A DNA stretch of 64,000 bases from Niallia alba (GTDB lineage Bacteria; Bacillota; Bacilli; Bacillales; Cytobacillaceae), in assembly GCF_012933555.1 (NCBI RefSeq), contig NZ_JABBPK010000001.1, forward strand, positions 2,210,001-2,274,000, read 5' to 3'. Below the pieces are notes generated by a model, which worked only from the letters and a program-made list of their open reading frames with translations, had not been told where the DNA came from and ran no database searches. Shown in pieces: positions 8,149-47,378 of the stretch. The position numbers were made by a program, and so were the translations under genes. Each line of letters opens with the position of its first letter. The stretch's first letter is position 1.

Positions 8149-8188
8149 GGGAGAATAATAGATTTGGACTTGGATTTTGGAGGAAGTT

Positions 8189-10807
8189 ATGACGACATAT
8201 ACGCCAATGATACAACAATACTTACAAGTAAAGGCAGATTATCAGGATGCCTTTTTATTTTTTCGTTTAGGGGATTTTTATGAAATGTTCTTTGATGATG
8301 CAATCAAAGCATCACAAGAGCTCGAAATTACGTTAACGAGTAGAGAAGGTGGGGGAGCGGAGCGAATTCCGATGTGTGGAGTTCCTCATCATTCTGCTCC
8401 TAACTATATTGAACAGCTTGTCGAGCGCGGCTACAAAGTAGCAATCTGTGAACAAACAGAAGACCCAAAGCAAGCAAAAGGAGTCGTGAAAAGAGAAGTC
8501 GTTCAGCTCATCACGCCTGGTACGATGATGGAAGGAAAAAATCTTTCCGATAAAGAAAACAACTATATTGCCACTATTTCATTATTTGCAGACGAAAAAT
8601 TTGGCTTTGCCTATAGCGATTTATCGACTGGGGAAAGTAAAGCAACCATTTTAACTGGCATCGATTCGTTATTAAATGAACTATCTTTGTCAGGAGCGAA
8701 AGAAGTTGTTATTTCAGATGACTTTTCCAAAGAGTATCAGAAGCGATTGCAGGAGCGAGGAACTTTAACGCTTTCAATCGAAAATGATACCGATGAAAAA
8801 GATATGCATGCTCCTTTATTGCAAGGAGTAGAAAAGCAACAGCTGAAAAACACCGTTGCACGCTTGTTTAATTATTTATATCGAACACAAAAACGAAGCT
8901 TGGATCACTTACAGCCTGTTTCGATTTATGTAATCGATCAGTTTATGAAAATAGATTATTATTCCAAGCGAAATTTAGAATTAACAGAAACGATTCGTTC
9001 AAAAGGGAAAAAAGGATCGCTCCTCTGGTTATTGGACGAAACGAAAACAGCGATGGGCGGAAGACTTTTAAAACAGTGGATTGACCGCCCACTCTTAAAT
9101 AAAGAGGAGATTGAATATCGTCAAAATTTAGTAGCGACGATGATCGGTCATTACTTTGAACGCCAAGATTTACGGGAAAAGCTAAAGGAAGTGTACGATT
9201 TAGAACGTCTAGCAGGCCGAGTGGCATTTGGTAATGTAAATGCAAGAGATCTTGTACAGCTAAAAAAATCACTACAACAAGTGCCAATCATTCAGCAAAT
9301 CGTTGCATCGTTCGGATCAGAAGAAGCAACCAGACTTGCTGATGAACTAGATCCATGTGAAGATATAACCGATTTATTAGAACGGGCAATTGTTGAAAAT
9401 CCACCACTTTCCATTAAAGAAGGAAATATCATCTTAGATGGCTATCATTCTGAATTAGACAGCTACCGTGATGCAAGTCGAAACGGTAAAACGTGGATCG
9501 CCCAGCTGGAAAGAGAAGAACGCGAAAAAACAGGCATTAAATCATTAAAAATCGGCTATAATCGTATATTCGGTTATTACATTGAAGTAACAAGAGCAAA
9601 TGTTCATCTTTTACAAGAAGGACAGTATGAGCGCAAACAAACACTTGCCAATGCAGAGCGTTATATCACACCAGAATTAAAGGAAAAAGAAAGCTTAATC
9701 TTGCAAGCAGAAGAAAAAATGGTTGAACTAGAATATGAGATTTTCACAACAATCAGAGAAACGATCAAAGAATATATCCCGCGCTTGCAAAATTTAGCAA
9801 AAACAGTCAGTACGCTAGATGTATTACAATGCTTTGCAACTGTTAGTGAAGATCGTCGCTATGTGAAGCCAGAGTTTTCAAGTGATCGAACTCTTTCTAT
9901 TAAAAATGGCCGTCATCCAGTAGTGGAAAAGGTGATGAACGCGCAGAACTATGTCGCTAATGATTGCACGATGCATAAAGAGAGAGAGTTGCTGTTAATT
10001 ACAGGACCAAATATGTCTGGTAAAAGTACGTATATGCGCCAAATTGCCTTAACAAGCATTTTAGCGCAAATCGGTTGTTTCGTACCAGCAGACGAAGCAG
10101 TATTGCCATTATTTGACCAAGTCTTTACGAGAATTGGTGCAGCAGATGATCTTATTTCTGGTCAAAGCACATTTATGGTTGAGATGCTAGAAGCAAGAAA
10201 TGCACTTTTACATGCAACCAATAACAGCTTAATTCTCTTTGATGAAATTGGACGCGGTACAAGCACCTATGATGGAATGGCGCTTGCCCAAGCGATTATT
10301 GAATATATCCATCATGAAGTCGGCGCTAAAACGTTATTCTCGACCCACTATCATGAACTAACTGTACTTGCGGAAGAGCTTCAGTCATTAAGCAATGTTC
10401 ATGTTAGCGCAATGGAGCAAAATGGAAAAGTAGTCTTCCTTCATAAAATTAAAGAAGGAGCAGCAGATAAAAGCTACGGAATTCACGTTGCCCAGCTTGC
10501 TGAATTACCAGAAGCACTAATTGAACGCGCACAAGAACTATTAACAAGTCTAGAGCAAAAAGATCAATTTGCTGGAGAAGCAGCAGTCACGCAAATCGAA
10601 CAACCTGTTGTAAAAGCAGAAAAAATCGAGGAAGAAGCACAATTATCCTTCTTTGATACAGAAGTGAAAAAGCCTCAAAAAGCTCTTTCTACAAAGGAAA
10701 AGCAAATTGTAAACAAACTTAAAGACTTGGATATTTTAGAAATGACACCAATGCAGGCATTAAATACACTGTATGAACTTCATAAAAAAGTTCGAAACGA
10801 CGGATAA
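8189..10807 (+). CDS. mutS: DNA mismatch repair protein MutS
   Basis: 872 aa, slightly longer than B. subtilis MutS (858 aa). The mismatch-reading Phe-x-Glu is present (Phe30 and Glu32 in LGDFYEMF). The clamp and lever domains precede the ABC ATPase domain with Walker [10 protein letters not shown] (606-614), the signature region [12 protein letters not shown], Walker [14 protein letters not shown] and the switch STHYHEL. Near the C-terminus QLSFF is the beta-clamp binding motif used in Bacillus for coupling repair to the replisome. The in-frame TTG at 8177 overlaps the ribosome binding site GGAGG (8179-8183), so the ATG at 8189 is the start. mutL follows 529 bp downstream, beyond a hairpin array. 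Confidence 0.98.
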
Positions 10808-10821
10808 AGTGAGTCAATATG

Positions 10822-11262
10822 ATGTTCATAAGTGAGATGAAAGCTACGAAATAGAGAATCGTTAGAAAAAGTGGTTTTCATAAGCAGGATGAACGCTGAA
10901 AAACAGAGGAATGTTGGGAAAAGTGGTGTTCATAAGCGAGATGAACGCTGAAAAATAGAGGAATGTTGGAAAAAGTGGTTTTCATGAGCAGGATGAACGC
11001 TGAAAGCAGAGGAATGTTGGGAAAAGTGGTTTTCATAAGCAGGATGAATGCTGAAAAACAGAGGAATGTTGGGAAAAGTGGTTTTCATGAGCAGGATGAA
11101 CGCTGAAAAATAGAGAAACGTCTGAAAAAGTGGCGTTCATAAGCAAGATGAAAGCCGAAAAATAGATAAACGCCTGAAAAAATGGTGTTCATAAGCAAGA
11201 TGAAAGCCAAAAACAGAGAAACACCGAAAATAATGGTCTTCATGTACAAGTTGAACGCCGAA
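10822..11262 (+). repeat. Nine-unit array of a 52-bp hairpin repeat between mutS and mutL
   Basis: The whole mutS-mutL gap is a tandem array. The ATGAA core recurs at 10837, 10889, 10941, 10993, 11044, 11096, 11148 and 11200, with a diverged last unit near 11251, a period of 52 bp (51 once). Each unit reads roughly GTGG(T/C)(G/T)TTCAT, loop AAGCAGG, ATGAACGC, then a 25-nt spacer with GAAAAACAGAGGAATG. The first two blocks form a stem with a 7-nt loop. The period is not a multiple of three, and both parts repeat, so it is neither coding nor a CRISPR array. The same family fills 29128-30067. Confidence 0.9.
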
Positions 11263-11336
11263 ATTAGTACTACAGTTCAATCTTATGCATGTGCCGATTA
11301 ATCTGATTAAAAGTAGGAAAGAAAAGAGGAGAAACA

Positions 11337-13244
11337 ATGGCAAAGATTATTCAACTGGATGATGCACTTTCGAATAAAATTGCTGCAGGTGAAGTTGTTG
11401 AGCGGCCAGCCTCTGTTGTAAAAGAATTAGTGGAAAATAGCATAGATGCCAAAAGTACGTCGATTGAAATATTTATCGAGGAAGCTGGTTTACAAAGCAT
11501 TCGCATTCTCGATAATGGACAAGGGATTGAGGAAGAGGATGTCTTAACAGCTTTTTCTAGACATGCGACAAGTAAAATCAAGGATGAAAATGACTTATTC
11601 CGTATTCGCACTCTTGGATTTAGAGGAGAGGCACTACCGAGTATTGCCTCAGTCTCCCATGTCACTTTAACGACTTCGACAGGAGAACAAGGAACAACAG
11701 TTGAGCTGAAAGGTGGCCATTTAGTAAAACAAGAGGGCGCACCCGGAAGAAAAGGAACAGAGATAATCGTCAGCGATTTATTCTTTAATACACCGGCAAG
11801 ACTGAAATATATGAAGTCGATTCATACAGAGCTTGGCAATATTACCGATATCGTTAACCGACTGGCACTTGCACATCCTAATGTAAGTTTCCGTTTAGTC
11901 CATAATGACCGCAAGTTACTTCATACAAATGGTAATGGGGATGTAAGACAGGTTCTTGCGAGCATTTATGGCTTAAATATAGCGAAAAAAATGATTCCTA
12001 TTTCCGCAAGCACCCTTGATTTTAAATTAAGTGGTTATATGGCACTGCCGGAAATCACTCGTGCGTCACGTAACTACATTTCCACGATGATTAATGGACG
12101 GTTTATTAAAAACTATTCCCTTGTTCGCAGCATTCAAGAAGGGTATCACACGTTATTGCCGATTGGCAGATATCCAATTGTTCTTTTAAATGTAGAAATG
12201 GATCCAATTTTAGTAGATGTTAATGTCCATCCATCGAAAATGGAAGTTCGCTTCAGTAAAGAACAAGAATTATATGAACTCGTAAGTAATACGATTAAAG
12301 CTGCCTTCAAGAAAAAAGAACTTATTCCAGCAGGGCTTATCCGGGAGAAAAAGCCAGCTCCGAAGGAAGAACAAGCAGCTTTTAGCTTTGACACGATAAG
12401 AGAACCGGCGATACCATCTATTCCAAAGACCGAACCAACTTTTTCGATTCCAAAAGTAGAGGTAGAAGAAAAATCGACATGGAATCAGCCTGTTGAAGAT
12501 GCACCAAGTAGTTGGCCGGCTGAGGAAGTAGAGAACAATCCAATGGACAGTGCACCATTCTTTTTAGGCGGAGAGTCGAATACTATCCTTCCACCATTAC
12601 CAGCCGAGGTAGAAGAGGAAACATGGGAAGAGAAAGAAATAGCCGATGTAGTCGAAGGATCAAGAGTACCGCCACTTTATCCAATTGGTCAAATGCATGG
12701 AACGTATATTTTTGCCCAAAATGAAAGAGGGCTGTACATTATCGATCAACACGCTGCCCAAGAACGAATCAAATACGAATTTTTCCGTGAAAAAGTCGGA
12801 GAAGTTCATAATGAATTACAAGAAATGCTCATTCCATTAACTTTAGATTATTCGCTAGATGAGTGGATGAAAATAGAAGAAAATAAAGTCGAATTAGAAA
12901 AAGTAGGCGTATTTCTCGAACCATTTGGCCAGCAAAGCTACCTAGTTCGCTCTCATCCACAATGGTTCCCAAAAGGCGAAGAAAAAGAAACAATCGAAGA
13001 AATGATCGAACAAGTTCTCTCCATGAAAAAAGTAGACATCAAACTATTAAGAGAAGAAGCAGCCATCATGATGAGTTGCAAAGGCTCAATCAAAGCAAAC
13101 CGTCATTTGCGAAACGACGAAATTCAGAGCCTACTCGACGAACTTCGGACTACATCGGATCCATTTACTTGTCCGCATGGGAGACCGATTATTGTGCATT
13201 ATTCTACTTATGAGATGGAGAAGATGTTTAAGCGCGTGATGTAG
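11337..13244 (+). CDS. mutL: DNA mismatch repair endonuclease MutL
   Basis: 635 aa (B. subtilis 627). The GHKL ATPase domain has Glu30/Asn34 in [16 protein letters not shown] and [11 protein letters not shown] long acidic, Pro-rich linker (about 335-440) follows. The C-terminal domain has the endonuclease motif [12 protein letters not shown] (470-481), as in Gram-positive MutL that nicks DNA, and ends with [12 protein letters not shown] and CPHGRP metal-site residues. It acts with MutS and the beta clamp to direct strand-specific repair. The ATG at 11337 follows AAGAGGAGA. Downstream, a decayed prophage begins within 70 bp, so this gene closes the conserved core. Confidence 0.98.
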
Positions 13245-28505: not shown

Positions 28506-28655
28506 GAAAACGGTGGATAGGTCTCTGATGGTAATGGTACGTGATTAAACTTTATTAGATTCACCCTCACCTAATGTTAATAAAGTATAGAAGCTTTATT
28601 GTACAAGTAAATGGAAGAAGAATGAAAAAAGTTTATAAATCTAGAGGTGGAAATT

Positions 28656-29099
28656 TTGAATATAATCTCGTTTGGCGAAATAGAAGAAGGCAAAGAATAG
28701 ATAAAGAGGTCTGCGGCTTATTGTATAATATTTAATAATCAGAAAGATAAAATTGCCATCATGCAAACTAGTGATGGCAAATACTTTCTCCCTGGTGGAG
28801 GAATAGAAAACAAGGAGACACACCAAGAGTGTTAAATAAGAGAAGCCTTGGAAGAAATGGGAATGGAAATAGAAATAGGTCCATTCATAGGGAATGCTCG
28901 AAGATATTTTTATTCTACAAATGAATATAAATATTATCTTAGTGAAGGATATTTCTATTTATGCAATATGGTAAAACAAATAGGTGAACCAACAGAAGAA
29001 GGTCATTTTCTTAAATGGATGGAACCAATTCAAGCAGTAGAAAGTTTATTTCATGATCATCAAAGCTGGGCAATTAATGAAGTATTAGAAATACTTTAA
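28656..29099 (+). pseudogene. Nudix hydrolase pseudogene with two in-frame stops
   Basis: From TTG 28656 (AGGTGG upstream) the frame reads NIISFGEIEEGKE, TAG at 28698, then IKRSAAYCIIFNNQKDKIAI and GKYFLPGGGIENKETHQEC. After TAA at 28833 it continues IREALEEMGMEIEIG and on to the stop at 29097. The Nudix box GGIENKETHQ..REALEEMG is complete apart from the stop codon inside it. About 147 codons in total suit a small MutT-like enzyme. Both lesions are single-base nonsense changes, suggesting recent inactivation. The 52-bp hairpin array starts directly after the gene. Confidence 0.82.
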
Positions 29100-29127: not shown

Positions 29128-30067
29128 CAGGCGTTCATAAGCAGAATGAACGCCGATATTCTGTGGAGTAAGAGGAAAAGTGGTTTTCATAAGTAAAATG
29201 AACGCCAATATTCTGTGGAGTAAGAGGAAAAGTGGGTTTTCATAAGTAAAATGAACGCCAATATTCTGTGGAGTAAGAGGAAAAGTGGGTTTTCATCAGA
29301 TGAATGAACACCACTATTTCGTAGAGTAAGAGGAAAAGTGGTTTTCATAAGTAAAATGAACGCCAATATTCTGTGGAGTAAGAGGAAAAGTGGTTTTCAT
29401 CAGATGAATGAACGCCACTATTTCGTAGAGTAAGAGGAAAAGTGGTTTTCATCAGATGAATGAACGTCACTATTTTGTAGAGTAAGAGGAAAAGTGGTTT
29501 TCACCAGATGAATGAACGCCACTATTTTGTAGAGTAAGAGGGAAAGTGGTTTTCATCAATAGAATGAACGCCGATATTCTGTGGAGTAAGAGGAAAAGTG
29601 GTTTTCATAAGTAAAATGAACGCCAATATTCTGTGGAGTAAGAGGAAAAGTGGTTTTCATCAGATGAATGAACACCACTATTTCGTAGAGTAAGAGGAAA
29701 AGTGGTTTTCATCAATAGAATGAACGCCACTATTTCGTAGAGTAAGAGGGAAAGTGGTTTTCATCAGATGAATGAACGCCACTATTTCGTAGAGAAAGAG
29801 GAAAAGTGGTTTTCATAAGTAAAATGAACACCACTATTTCGTGGAGTAAGAAGAAAAGTGGTTTTCATCAGATGAATGAACACCACTATTTCGTAGAGTA
29901 AGAGGAAAAGTGGTTTTCATCAGATGAATGAACGTCACTATTTTGTAGAGTAAGAGGAAAAGTGGTTTTCACCAGATGAATGAACGCCACTATTTTGTAG
30001 AGTAAGAGGGAAAGTGGTTTTCATCAGATGAATGAACGCCACTATCTCATGGAGTAAGAAGAAAGTG
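29128..30067 (+). repeat. Eighteen-unit array of the 52-bp hairpin repeat
   Basis: The ATGAAC core occurs at 29146, 29198, 29251, 29304, 29356, 29408, 29460, 29512, 29564, 29616, 29668, 29720, 29772, 29824, 29876, 29928, 29980 and 30032, a period of 52 bp (53 twice). Each unit has GTGGTTTTCAT, a 7-nt loop (AAGTAAA, CAGATGA or CAATAGA), ATGAACGCCA, then about 25 nt ending GAGTAAGAGGAAAA. The two arms pair with one wobble and one mismatch; the first unit pairs perfectly (GGCGTTCAT with ATGAACGCC). It is the same repeat family as at 10822-11262. No unit-specific spacers exist. Confidence 0.93.
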
Positions 30068-30391
30068 GTAGTTGGAGTTGAGAGTCTTTATCCTTGTTCT
30101 ATTGAATAAATATTTACCACTTATTGCTGATGAAATGAATTCTTTACTTAAGCAAAGCGGATTAACCCCCGAATTTTGGACAATAACTCTCTTATTCTTT
30201 CATTTCCTCAGTTTTTTATTTTATAGATTTCTTTCATTATTCTTCAAAAAGGCCATGTTGCTTGACATGGAGCCTCTGCGGGCATGATTCTCCTGCCAAG
30301 AAGCCAGCTGTTTTACAACATTGGCATCGCCGAACGAGGCTATCATGCCCGCCACTCCAAATCAAGCTGATGCTTTGAATGAATACATCCA

Positions 30392-31264
30392 TTACACCCG
30401 AACCTCCTTGATCACCAATGAATCTTGTTTTTGATAGAATTCCTTTGGTGACAAATCTAGTATACTAGAATGCATACGTCTCTCGTTGTAGAACTCCATA
30501 AAATTCATGACTTCTTGATATGCTTCTGTGTAGGTTTCAAACTGCCATCTGGATAGGCAATCGTCCTCAAAAATGCGATGGAAAGACTCAATATGAGCAT
30601 TCATATTTGGTGTTCTTGGTGGAATTCTTTCGTGCTCAATTTTGGAATCTTCACAAAACTTTTCAAAAGTATGGGAAATAAACTGCGGTCCATTGTCTGT
30701 TCGGATTACAGGTTTTTCCAATTCATCATATTGTTGGCGTTTTAATAATGCCCTTTTCAGTGTCTGTTTGACATCATCTCCAGTGCAGCTTAATCCCATA
30801 TGATAGGTAATGATGCCCCTGTCATAAACATCGATGATGGACATGACAAAGAAAAAGCGATCCTCACCTTCGATAAAGCCATATTTAATGTCAGCTTCCC
30901 ATAGCTGATTAGATCTTGTAATAATGCGATTTCTTGCTAGTTTCCTAGGGTATGAGACTTTCTTTTGGCGCTGTGGGCGTAAGATGCCCAATTCTTTACA
31001 AATCCGGTATACTTTTTTCTTGTTAATTTTAAGTTTGTATTTTCGCCTTAAGACCTTAGTGAGTTTGCGATAACCATAGTTATAGCAATCACCGGCAATC
31101 TCTTCTAGTAGAAATTCTTTAATCTGTTCGTCTGATATCTTTTGACCGTCCTCTTGGATCGAATAACCTGGTGCTGGACGTCCCTCACTTACTTTTTTCT
31201 CCTCAACACGATAATTCTTTTGATAATAGTATGTGGATCGAGGAATACCTATGATTTTAAGCAC
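30392..31264 (-). CDS. IS3-family transposase OrfB (copy 2)
   Basis: 290 aa, identical to the OrfB of copy 1, with the DDE residues in WEADIKYGF, VIRTDNGPQF and HIESFHRIF. It is expressed by -1 frameshifting from OrfA at the A6G motif (minus strand, 31336-31342). The reading frame is complete, so the element is potentially active. Confidence 0.93.
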   Translation of the reverse strand: MLKIIGIPRSTYYYQKNYRVEEKKVSEGRPAPGYSIQEDGQKISDEQIKEFLLEEIAGDCYNYGYRKLTKVLRRKYKLKINKKKVYRICKELGILRPQRQKKVSYPRKLARNRIITRSNQLWEADIKYGFIEGEDRFFFVMSIIDVYDRGIITYHMGLSCTGDDVKQTLKRALLKRQQYDELEKPVIRTDNGPQFISHTFEKFCEDSKIEHERIPPRTPNMNAHIESFHRIFEDDCLSRWQFETYTEAYQEVMNFMEFYNERRMHSSILDLSPKEFYQKQDSLVIKEVRV

Positions 31265-31302
31265 CTTTGAAATCGAGTAGCCTTTTTGAATCCATTTGTT
31301 AG

Positions 31303-31614
31303 CTACTTCATGCTTTTCAGCAAGTGAGGGTTTTTCTTTTTTATAAGATCCCTCAGGATCGCTATTTCAAGGTCTTTTTCACCTAATAACATTTTAAGTT
31401 TTTCATTTTCTTTGGATAATTCTTTGGAGTCTATATCTGGCAGCACAGCCACATCTACTTCACCAAATTTACCATCTTTGTATTCACGAACCCAGCGACT
31501 AACCATATTGGGATTCAGATCATACCGGCGAGCTACAAGGGTATTCTTCCCTGTGTCTTGGGCTTCCTTGATGACTTGTAATTTAAATTCTTTAGAATGT
31601 TTTATTCGTTTCAT
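31303..31614 (-). CDS. IS3-family transposase OrfA (copy 2)
   Basis: 103 aa, identical to OrfA of copy 1: helix-turn-helix in the first 50 residues and a coiled coil from about residue 60. It overlaps OrfB in the -1 frame. Confidence 0.93.
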   Translation of the reverse strand: MKRIKHSKEFKLQVIKEAQDTGKNTLVARRYDLNPNMVSRWVREYKDGKFGEVDVAVLPDIDSKELSKENEKLKMLLGEKDLEIAILRDLIKKKNPHLLKSMK

Positions 31615-46155: not shown

Positions 46156-47028
46156 TTACACCCGAACCTCCTTGATCACCAATGAATCTTGTTTTTGATA
46201 GAATTCCTTTGGTGACAAATCTAGTATACTAGAATGCATACGTCTCTCGTTGTAGAACTCCATAAAATTCATGACTTCTTGATATGCTTCTGTGTAGGTT
46301 TCAAACTGCCATCTGGATAGGCAATCGTCCTCAAAAATGCGATGGAAAGACTCAATATGAGCATTCATATTTGGTGTTCTTGGTGGAATTCTTTCGTGCT
46401 CAATTTTGGAATCTTCACAAAACTTTTCAAAAGTATGGGAAATAAACTGCGGTCCATTGTCTGTTCGGATTACAGGTTTTTCCAATTCATCATATTGTTG
46501 GCGTTTTAATAATGCCCTTTTCAGTGTCTGTTTGACATCATCTCCAGTGCAGCTTAATCCCATATGATAGGTAATGATGCCCCTGTCATAAACATCGATG
46601 ATGGACATGACAAAGAAAAAGCGATCCTCACCTTCGATAAAGCCATATTTAATGTCAGCTTCCCATAGCTGATTAGATCTTGTAATAATGCGATTTCTTG
46701 CTAGTTTCCTAGGGTATGAGACTTTCTTTTGGCGCTGTGGGCGTAAGATGCCCAATTCTTTACAAATCCGGTATACTTTTTTCTTGTTAATTTTAAGTTT
46801 GTATTTTCGCCTTAAGACCTTAGTGAGTTTGCGATAACCATAGTTATAGCAATCACCGGCAATCTCTTCTAGTAGAAATTCTTTAATCTGTTCGTCTGAT
46901 ATCTTTTGACCGTCCTCTTGGATCGAATAACCTGGTGCTGGACGTCCCTCACTTACTTTTTTCTCCTCAACACGATAATTCTTTTGATAATAGTATGTGG
47001 ATCGAGGAATACCTATGATTTTAAGCAC
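46156..47028 (-). CDS. IS3-family transposase OrfB (copy 3)
   Basis: 290 aa, identical to the other two OrfB proteins, with DDE residues in WEADIKYGF, VIRTDNGPQF and HIESFHRIF. Produced as OrfAB by -1 frameshifting at the A6G motif. Confidence 0.93.
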   Translation of the reverse strand: MLKIIGIPRSTYYYQKNYRVEEKKVSEGRPAPGYSIQEDGQKISDEQIKEFLLEEIAGDCYNYGYRKLTKVLRRKYKLKINKKKVYRICKELGILRPQRQKKVSYPRKLARNRIITRSNQLWEADIKYGFIEGEDRFFFVMSIIDVYDRGIITYHMGLSCTGDDVKQTLKRALLKRQQYDELEKPVIRTDNGPQFISHTFEKFCEDSKIEHERIPPRTPNMNAHIESFHRIFEDDCLSRWQFETYTEAYQEVMNFMEFYNERRMHSSILDLSPKEFYQKQDSLVIKEVRV

Positions 47029-47066
47029 CTTTGAAATCGAGTAGCCTTTTTGAATCCATTTGTTAG

Positions 47067-47378
47067 CTACTTCATGCTTTTCAGCAAGTGAGGGTTTTTC
47101 TTTTTTATAAGATCCCTCAGGATCGCTATTTCAAGGTCTTTTTCACCTAATAACATTTTAAGTTTTTCATTTTCTTTGGATAATTCTTTGGAGTCTATAT
47201 CTGGCAGCACAGCCACATCTACTTCACCAAATTTACCATCTTTGTATTCACGAACCCAGCGACTAACCATATTGGGATTCAGATCATACCGGCGAGCTAC
47301 AAGGGTATTCTTCCCTGTGTCTTGGGCTTCCTTGATGACTTGTAATTTAAATTCTTTAGAATGTTTTATTCGTTTCAT
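47067..47378 (-). CDS. IS3-family transposase OrfA (copy 3)
   Basis: 103 aa, identical to the other OrfA proteins: an N-terminal helix-turn-helix for end recognition, then a coiled coil. AAGGAGG precedes the ATG at 47378. Confidence 0.93.
   Translation of the reverse strand: MKRIKHSKEFKLQVIKEAQDTGKNTLVARRYDLNPNMVSRWVREYKDGKFGEVDVAVLPDIDSKELSKENEKLKMLLGEKDLEIAILRDLIKKKNPHLLKSMK

Follow-up and report, generated by a model that had tools for sequence, protein, structure and literature searches.

A 52-bp inverted-repeat array in Niallia alba belongs to a dispersed family of arrays associated with a subfamily of NERD proteins

On the F plasmid, the sopC site follows the sopB gene. This site is described as twelve 43-bp repeats with ten 16-bp inverted repeats, which are bound by ParB (SopB) (PMC6238139). 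Another pairing of palindromes with a protein is that of REP elements and RAYT, in which the palindromes are dispersed and extragenic, the RAYT genes are described as flanked by two inverted REPs, and protein and palindrome co-evolve (PMC8266576, PMC2817692, PMC3733652). The main text of the REP survey among these works contains no occurrence of Firmicutes (PMC3733652). NERD, the nuclease-related domain and a further element of the comparison made here, is listed in a figure legend among putative CRISPR auxiliary genes (PMC10910872), and its function in bacteria is stated as not studied in the paper on SmdA (PMC9040797).

The array described here lies in a window of 64,000 nucleotides, the whole stretch of DNA analysed (G000:C1:2210001-2274000), within the 5.24-Mb genome of Niallia alba (G000). 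By analogy, the system to which it belongs may be said to resemble REP/RAYT in logic and sopB/sopC in geometry. As with REP elements, the palindromes are dispersed, extragenic and present in many copies with covarying arms (3 of 123 arrays lie within an ORF), a gene family is bordered by the same palindromes, and protein and palindrome change together. In contrast to RAYT, a Y1 HUH transposase, the protein here has a NERD nuclease fold, and the array is one-sided, tandem at 52 bp and in a single orientation. The likeness to sopB/sopC lies in tandem repeats of fixed period, each with an inverted repeat, that follow the gene of a putative binding protein (102 of 116 NERD loci); the arrays here are nevertheless chromosomal, dispersed in about 20 places, of period 52 and accompanied by an unrelated protein, with no ParA-like neighbour recurring among the 116 loci. 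CRISPR arrays are likewise short palindromic repeats set at regular intervals next to a gene, but here the stretch between the palindromes is itself repeated within the array, and there are no unique spacers because the joints repeat within the arrays shown. It is a guess that the listing of NERD as a CRISPR auxiliary arose through arrays of this kind. NERD proteins in general share their domain with the present subfamily, and no published NERD protein was found with repeat arrays in the open literature, nor was a description found there of a 52-bp repeat in Bacillus or Bacillaceae. The partnership of a NERD gene with a repeat array thus appears to be undescribed in the open literature, with a prior account in subscription papers possible; its novelty also rests on NERD being unrelated to the known protein partners of palindromic repeats.

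Manual counting of the window array gave 18 units with steps of 52 bp in 15 of 17 cases and 53 bp in two (Table 1), and TRF gave 17.8 copies of period 52 at 29144-30069. The unit can also be written AAAAGTGGYKTTCAT, 7 variable bases, ATGAAMRCC and joint; in the first unit, the arms GGCGTTCAT and ATGAACGCC are complementary throughout. The 18-unit, 52-bp array reported in the earlier note is thereby confirmed, as are its total of 27 units over this array and the one between mutS and mutL, and the difference in joint sequence between the two. Where that note counted two loci, the genome holds at least 20 arrays. Within the window, the core TTCAT-N7-ATGAA is found 24 times against a mean of 0.35 in dinucleotide shuffles, and 0 of 100 shuffles reach 24, while Rfam gave 0 matches at gathering score. 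The window array is immediately preceded by a Nudix-like gene (by eye, 28650-29097) that is broken by stop codons. Just past the array stands the first of two copies of an IS3-type two-ORF element with equal ORF sizes (30392-31614, matching Pfam rve and HTH_Tnp_1, and 46156-47378).

Table 1. Repeat arrays and flanking genes in the window (positions counted from its first base)
Feature	Position	Strand	Remark	Basis
18-unit array, period 52 bp	29128..30071	+	given strand is the purine-rich one	sequence and TRF
Unit of this array			AAAAGTGG-Y-K-TTCAT, 7-bp centre, ATGAA-M-R-CC, joint	
First-unit core, TTCAT-N7-ATGAA	29134..29150	+		read from sequence
Last-unit core	30020..30036	+		
9-unit array between mutS and mutL	10819..11265 (ends approximate)	+	same arms, other joint; 9 cores, starts 10825 to 11239	
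mutS	8177..10807	+	upstream of 9-unit array	ORF; Pfam MutS I-V
mutL	11337..13244	+	downstream of 9-unit array	ORF; Pfam MutL_C and DNA_mis_repair

The arrays of this genome have common arms and a 52-bp spacing, while their joints and 7-bp centres differ. A BLAST search of this genome with the window array returned 20 matches, some within one array, and exact patterns added more; 20 arrays were analysed, a minimum because the exact patterns gave first places only. Of the 193 genomes of the family, 87 have the tandem TTCAT pattern (two cores 50-54 bp apart); they represent 15 of its 25 genera, and the reversed pattern has no match in any of the 193. Spacing is narrowly confined: scans of the ranges 50-54 and 55-85 bp over these genomes gave 2859 core pairs in the former and 10, in 8 genomes, in the latter. 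Among 572 steps in the named loci listed, under a pattern allowing 50-54 bp only, 509 are of 52 bp, 46 of 51 bp, 13 of 53 bp, three of 50 bp and one of 54 bp. At least 118 stretches of a wider named collection carry the tandem pattern, by title 117 from Bacillota and one from a Saprospiraceae bin; the Bacillota listed include Neobacillus, Cytobacillus, Metabacillus, Ureibacillus, Lysinibacillus, Sutcliffiella, Heyndrickxia and Oceanobacillus. The search for more arrays proposed in the earlier note was therefore answered well beyond the genome itself. In Niallia circulans NBRC 13626 (L194), the unit is nearly identical to those of two other genomes, G012 and G007. Searches of 72,556 plasmid and 50,697 phage records with the window array found no match, and seven stretches from viral contigs carry the tandem pattern.

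The proposal that the arms are kept while the joint drifts holds in the comparison between arrays. Among 95 grouped arrays from 28 genomes, the arms of 218 pairs from the same genome differ by 0.21 and those of 4243 pairs from different genomes by 0.52; loop distance (0.65 within, 0.68 between) and joint distance (0.68 and 0.73) are near random, with permutation p of 1 in 301 for arms and joint and 0.07 for the loop. Between 19 arrays of the N. alba genome, the outer arms differ by 0.23 and 0.33, and the loop and the joint by 0.50 each. Inside the window array, the joint (0.136) varies no more than the outer arms (0.106 and 0.157), so that the contrast is one between arrays and not within this array. 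Relative to shuffles, 123 array consensuses (without the Saprospiraceae locus) show complementary change outside the core at five positions, each with z between 4.7 and 7.6; the signal is weak at positions 9 and 10 (z 2.6, 2.4) and absent at positions 6 to 8. The signal is abolished by sliding the arm register by one base (shift +1); the conserved object is therefore an inverted repeat with 10-bp arms and a 7-bp centre, and its symmetry is retained across genera.

With orientation fitted, G-T mismatches show no excess over A-C mismatches (58.6 vs 56.6 weighted cells; 148 arrays, 715 units), and thus give no pointer to RNA or to a single folded strand. Full Watson-Crick pairing at the two positions beside the core is limited to 12 of the 142 units in 19 arrays of the N. 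alba genome. Judged from sequence, the mismatch pattern would fit a double-stranded inverted-repeat site at least as well as a hairpin. The hairpin repeat of the earlier note accordingly stands as a pair of inverted arms, which are imperfect, and the compensatory change it looked for is present at five positions, but with no G-T excess and with most units of the own genome mismatched beside the core. Some loops together with the following ATG read CAGGATG, presumably as in CsrB; CsrA-like loops were rejected, as the family-wide loop consensus has no fixed GGA.

In a search for a partner gene, 986 ORFs from 117 array loci, among those listed, were clustered. One family stands directly beside arrays, 25-213 bp away at 7 of the 117 loci; a distant relative at an eighth locus is 5.5 kb off. 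The largest cluster, which by eye resembles ABC transporters and covers 16 loci, keeps at least 0.6 kb from arrays in the ten members listed. A Pfam scan of seven proteins, namely six of the seven array-adjacent ones and the distant one, matched all of them to NERD (PF08378) at 51-71 bits against a cut-off of 22.1, the seventh adjacent protein (L178) being truncated where the locus ends. The profile A3, built from six proteins, gives 426-543 bits for full copies, 236 for the cut copy and 82 for the distant relative. The N. alba genome encodes a protein of this subfamily that scores 68 bits to PF08378; its gene lies outside the window (G000:C1:1994098-1995000), with an array that shares the arms of the window array starting about 120 bp past its end, and a second copy in this genome is broken. 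Four cysteines are conserved in the subfamily (112-113 of 113 proteins), along with E42 and D74 (112/113 each) and E/D87 and K89 (113/113 each), which are presumably the PD-(D/E)XK-type catalytic residues. The subfamily thus keeps the acidic residues and the E-x-K of PD-(D/E)XK nucleases, and an active site is predicted. A search for a solved structural relative of the NERD protein found none (best E 0.22), and PADLOC and NCBIfam models gave only weak matches of the NERD part to PglW, MkoA and MAD6, far below cut-offs where given (three proteins each). The N. alba protein has no match among plasmid or phage records, and its gene stands alone on the chromosome.

Within the genus of the window, this NERD subfamily is found in 6 of 6 array-bearing genomes and 0 of 7 others; together with its adjacency to arrays at 7 of 117 loci, this identifies it as the co-occurring protein gene that the earlier note had envisaged. 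In the family, 175 of 193 genomes carry it at E 1e-40, including 86 of 87 array-bearing genomes, and 17 of the 18 genomes lacking it are array-free; the exception, G032, has nine array pairs and no gene of the subfamily. Since the protein is also carried by 89 of the 106 genomes that lack the tandem TTCAT pattern, loci beside NERD genes were examined directly. These 116 loci, 36 returned by profile searches and 80 fetched, are mostly the top of the score list and not a random draw. A downstream tandem array is present at 102 of them, with a period of 52 bp in 89, 51 bp in 12 and 53 bp in one, beginning at a median of 71 bp past the NERD protein match, while 0 of 30 RAYT loci taken as a control have a 49-55-bp array. 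An upstream array is found at two loci, one of which has a downstream array too. Of the 13 loci with no array in the main scan, five have less than 300 bp of contig left, one has 451 bp and seven have 1.5 kb, the last group including L352, which has a 51-bp row on the opposite strand.

Many of the arrays beside NERD genes have other palindrome cores, such as TGTCCTCAA, GGTCATCAT, GGTCACTAAG and CCAAT. Such cores, read in the sequence beside NERD genes, account for some of the 89 pattern-negative genomes with the protein. Taking the best-scoring palindrome of each array, 8 or more of the 10 positions pair about a 7-bp centre in 70 of 102 arrays, compared with 1.4 percent of shuffles; the loop is odd in 95 of 102, a loop of 7 being commonest (40). 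Once 15 arrays with fewer than 7 pairs or no aligned protein are set aside, arm distance tracks protein distance in the remaining 87 (Mantel r 0.29, p 0.001). Additionally, arm distance is 0.30 for close homologues across genomes (116 pairs), compared with 0.51 for unrelated proteins (3602 pairs) and 0.58 for paralogs in the same genome (23 pairs). The motif thus belongs to the gene lineage, not to the genome. No further partner recurs beside the NERD gene, the commonest neighbour family being present at 9 of 116 loci. On the sense strand, 78 of the 102 downstream arrays are pyrimidine-rich, 16 purine-rich and eight between, and array orientation relative to the gene is therefore mostly one way; the genus of the window is oriented opposite to most.

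With ORFs called by a simple length rule, the 90 arrays with genes on both sides occupy 58 codirectional, 23 convergent and 9 divergent gaps, compared with 225, 66 and 99 among 390 array-free gaps (p 0.0015). The purine-rich strand is the leading strand in 19 of 20 arrays of the N. alba genome, the exception lying at 3.24 Mb, on the assumption of a terminus near the midpoint; the coding sequence that starts at position 1 of this genome is one that we take to be dnaA-like. In three of these arrays, which lie between genes opposing replication, orientation follows replication.

Comparison of six N. alba array sites with relatives points to gain and loss. At these sites G008 retains few or degenerate units; in G007, four of them carry arrays that differ in joint and unit number, one has none, and for the sixth a single flank was recovered; at three N. 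alba array sites in G010, two are empty and the third holds a different repeat. G008 lacks the gene-array module of N. alba, about 1.5 kb long, at the orthologous position: the flanks are present there but enclose 382 unrelated bases instead. Elsewhere, G008 has one truncated NERD gene and three array pairs, the arrays being small or decayed; array loss together with the gene, in the expected direction, is seen in this one genome. The earlier suggestion of a mobile element is partly borne out: orthologous sites differ in whether they hold arrays or the gene-array module, and in the size of these, but the comparison showed no transposition event. Beside one N. alba array (right flank of L013) lies a GC-rich dispersed element of up to about 250 bp, with many copies in G008, G007 and G010.

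Arms are common to arrays genome-wide, and the array beside the N. alba NERD gene carries them too; from one gene lineage to another, the arm sequence changes as well. On balance, the window array is probably one of about 20 dispersed arrays of recognition sites for a trans-acting NERD protein, which would maintain or spread them. In such a system, a dimer of the protein would bind each inverted repeat in duplex DNA; with 52 bp close to five helical turns, the dimers would lie on one face of the DNA and could form a cooperative complex, by analogy with ParB on the 43-bp repeats of the F plasmid. Less certainly, the PD-(D/E)XK-type active site may nick or cut within arrays, and repair by unequal recombination or gene conversion might expand, homogenise and sometimes reseed them. 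Cutting followed by repair would explain the uniform joints within an array, the different joints between arrays and the shrunken arrays upon gene loss. For the nature of the pair, a selfish or half-domesticated nuclease-repeat system is the first choice, and a chromosome-organising role the main rival.

In that rival, the sites benefit the host: NERD binding would organise, silence or insulate chromosomal DNA, with the nuclease fold used for binding or for a regulated step and not for spread. The constant spacing near five turns, the orientation with replication in 19 of 20 N. alba arrays (given a midpoint terminus), the avoidance of divergent, promoter-bearing gaps (9/90 vs 99/390) and a NERD gene that stands alone on the chromosome with no plasmid or phage match are all consistent with nucleoprotein sites of this kind. 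We nevertheless consider it less likely, as 7 of 13 genus members do without both arrays and gene, array positions and sizes turn over rapidly, and several paralogs with unrelated motifs coexist in a genome. Action at the RNA level, with arrays transcribed as hairpin trains and the protein targeting RNA, would suit the short distance past the gene (median 71 bp) and the prevailing pyrimidine-rich sense strand (78/102). It is made improbable by the equality of G-T and A-C mismatches, the 23 of 90 arrays that lie between convergent genes, the three N. alba arrays that follow replication against neighbouring transcription, the opposite orientation in this genus and the lack of an Rfam family in the window.

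Mobilisation of REP elements by a RAYT (Y1, HUH) transposase was pursued first because RAYT-like proteins match the arrays perfectly in the genus (6 of 6 array-bearing members, 0 of 7 others); in the family, they occur in 80 of 87 array-bearing and 66 of 106 other genomes (p 1.3e-6). Yet no Y1 match at E 1 or better is found in four array-bearing genomes, G093 (114 pairs), G098 (62), G178 and G094, and in genus g17 RAYT is present in 1 of 5 array-bearing compared with 16 of 31 other genomes. Despite the perfect genus match, RAYT as the partner is contradicted by the Y1-free array genomes, by the count of 0 RAYT among the 986 ORFs near arrays and by the absence of arrays at the 30 RAYT genes, leaving this explanation a very small probability. 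RAYT-like Y1 genes directly after an AAA-ATPase gene, one that presumably resembles YifB/ComM, are found within the genus in array-bearing species only; two N. alba copies are L029 and L030 (G000:C1:4586253 and 4566123). Least probable of all is passive replication slippage of a hairpin-prone unit under no selection, in spite of the uniform units within an array, the unit numbers that vary between species and the equal variation of joint and outer arms in the window array. The last of these agrees with what the earlier note had expected of slippage alone, but the further arrays in related genomes do not; furthermore, joints are near random between arrays and yet the length stays at 52, the arms covary, and the link to one protein subfamily is tight.

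More broadly, and tentatively, the recognition of arrays by a trans-acting NERD protein may extend to a large undescribed Bacillales class of chromosomal gene-repeat pairs, in which each NERD paralog has its own palindrome and phased array, the nuclease spreads its sites and the arrays are footprints of many parallel site-specific nucleases. If true, this would account for a sizeable part of the tandem repeats between genes in Bacillales and represent a second, unrelated solution to the joint function of REP and RAYT. If the adjacent array is the partner of NERD, this widespread domain would acquire a DNA target and a role, together with a specificity open to testing, and the many lineages with differing palindromes form a natural library for a DNA-recognition code.

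Tandem rows also occur with a second NERD subfamily, whose members score 60-98 bits against the A3 profile. Seven of ten loci hold rows with a period of 20-21 or 41 bp, again close to whole helical turns, which would suggest whole-turn spacing as a rule of the class. These rows, for example direct repeats of ATCAGCCAAA or CGCAACAAAA, start 38-90 bp from the gene at L313, L319 and L320 (G000:C1:4626569) and lie 200-570 bp upstream at L321, L189 and L307; the row at L306 was not recovered on the other strand. At L322 and L323, spaced copies of TATTCGCGAAA are seen by eye. At a site that holds a 52-bp array in G000 and G007, G010 has a long array of CGCAACAAAA-type repeats (L420, G010:C12:115000-117000), the same motif that stands beside G010's own second-class NERD gene.
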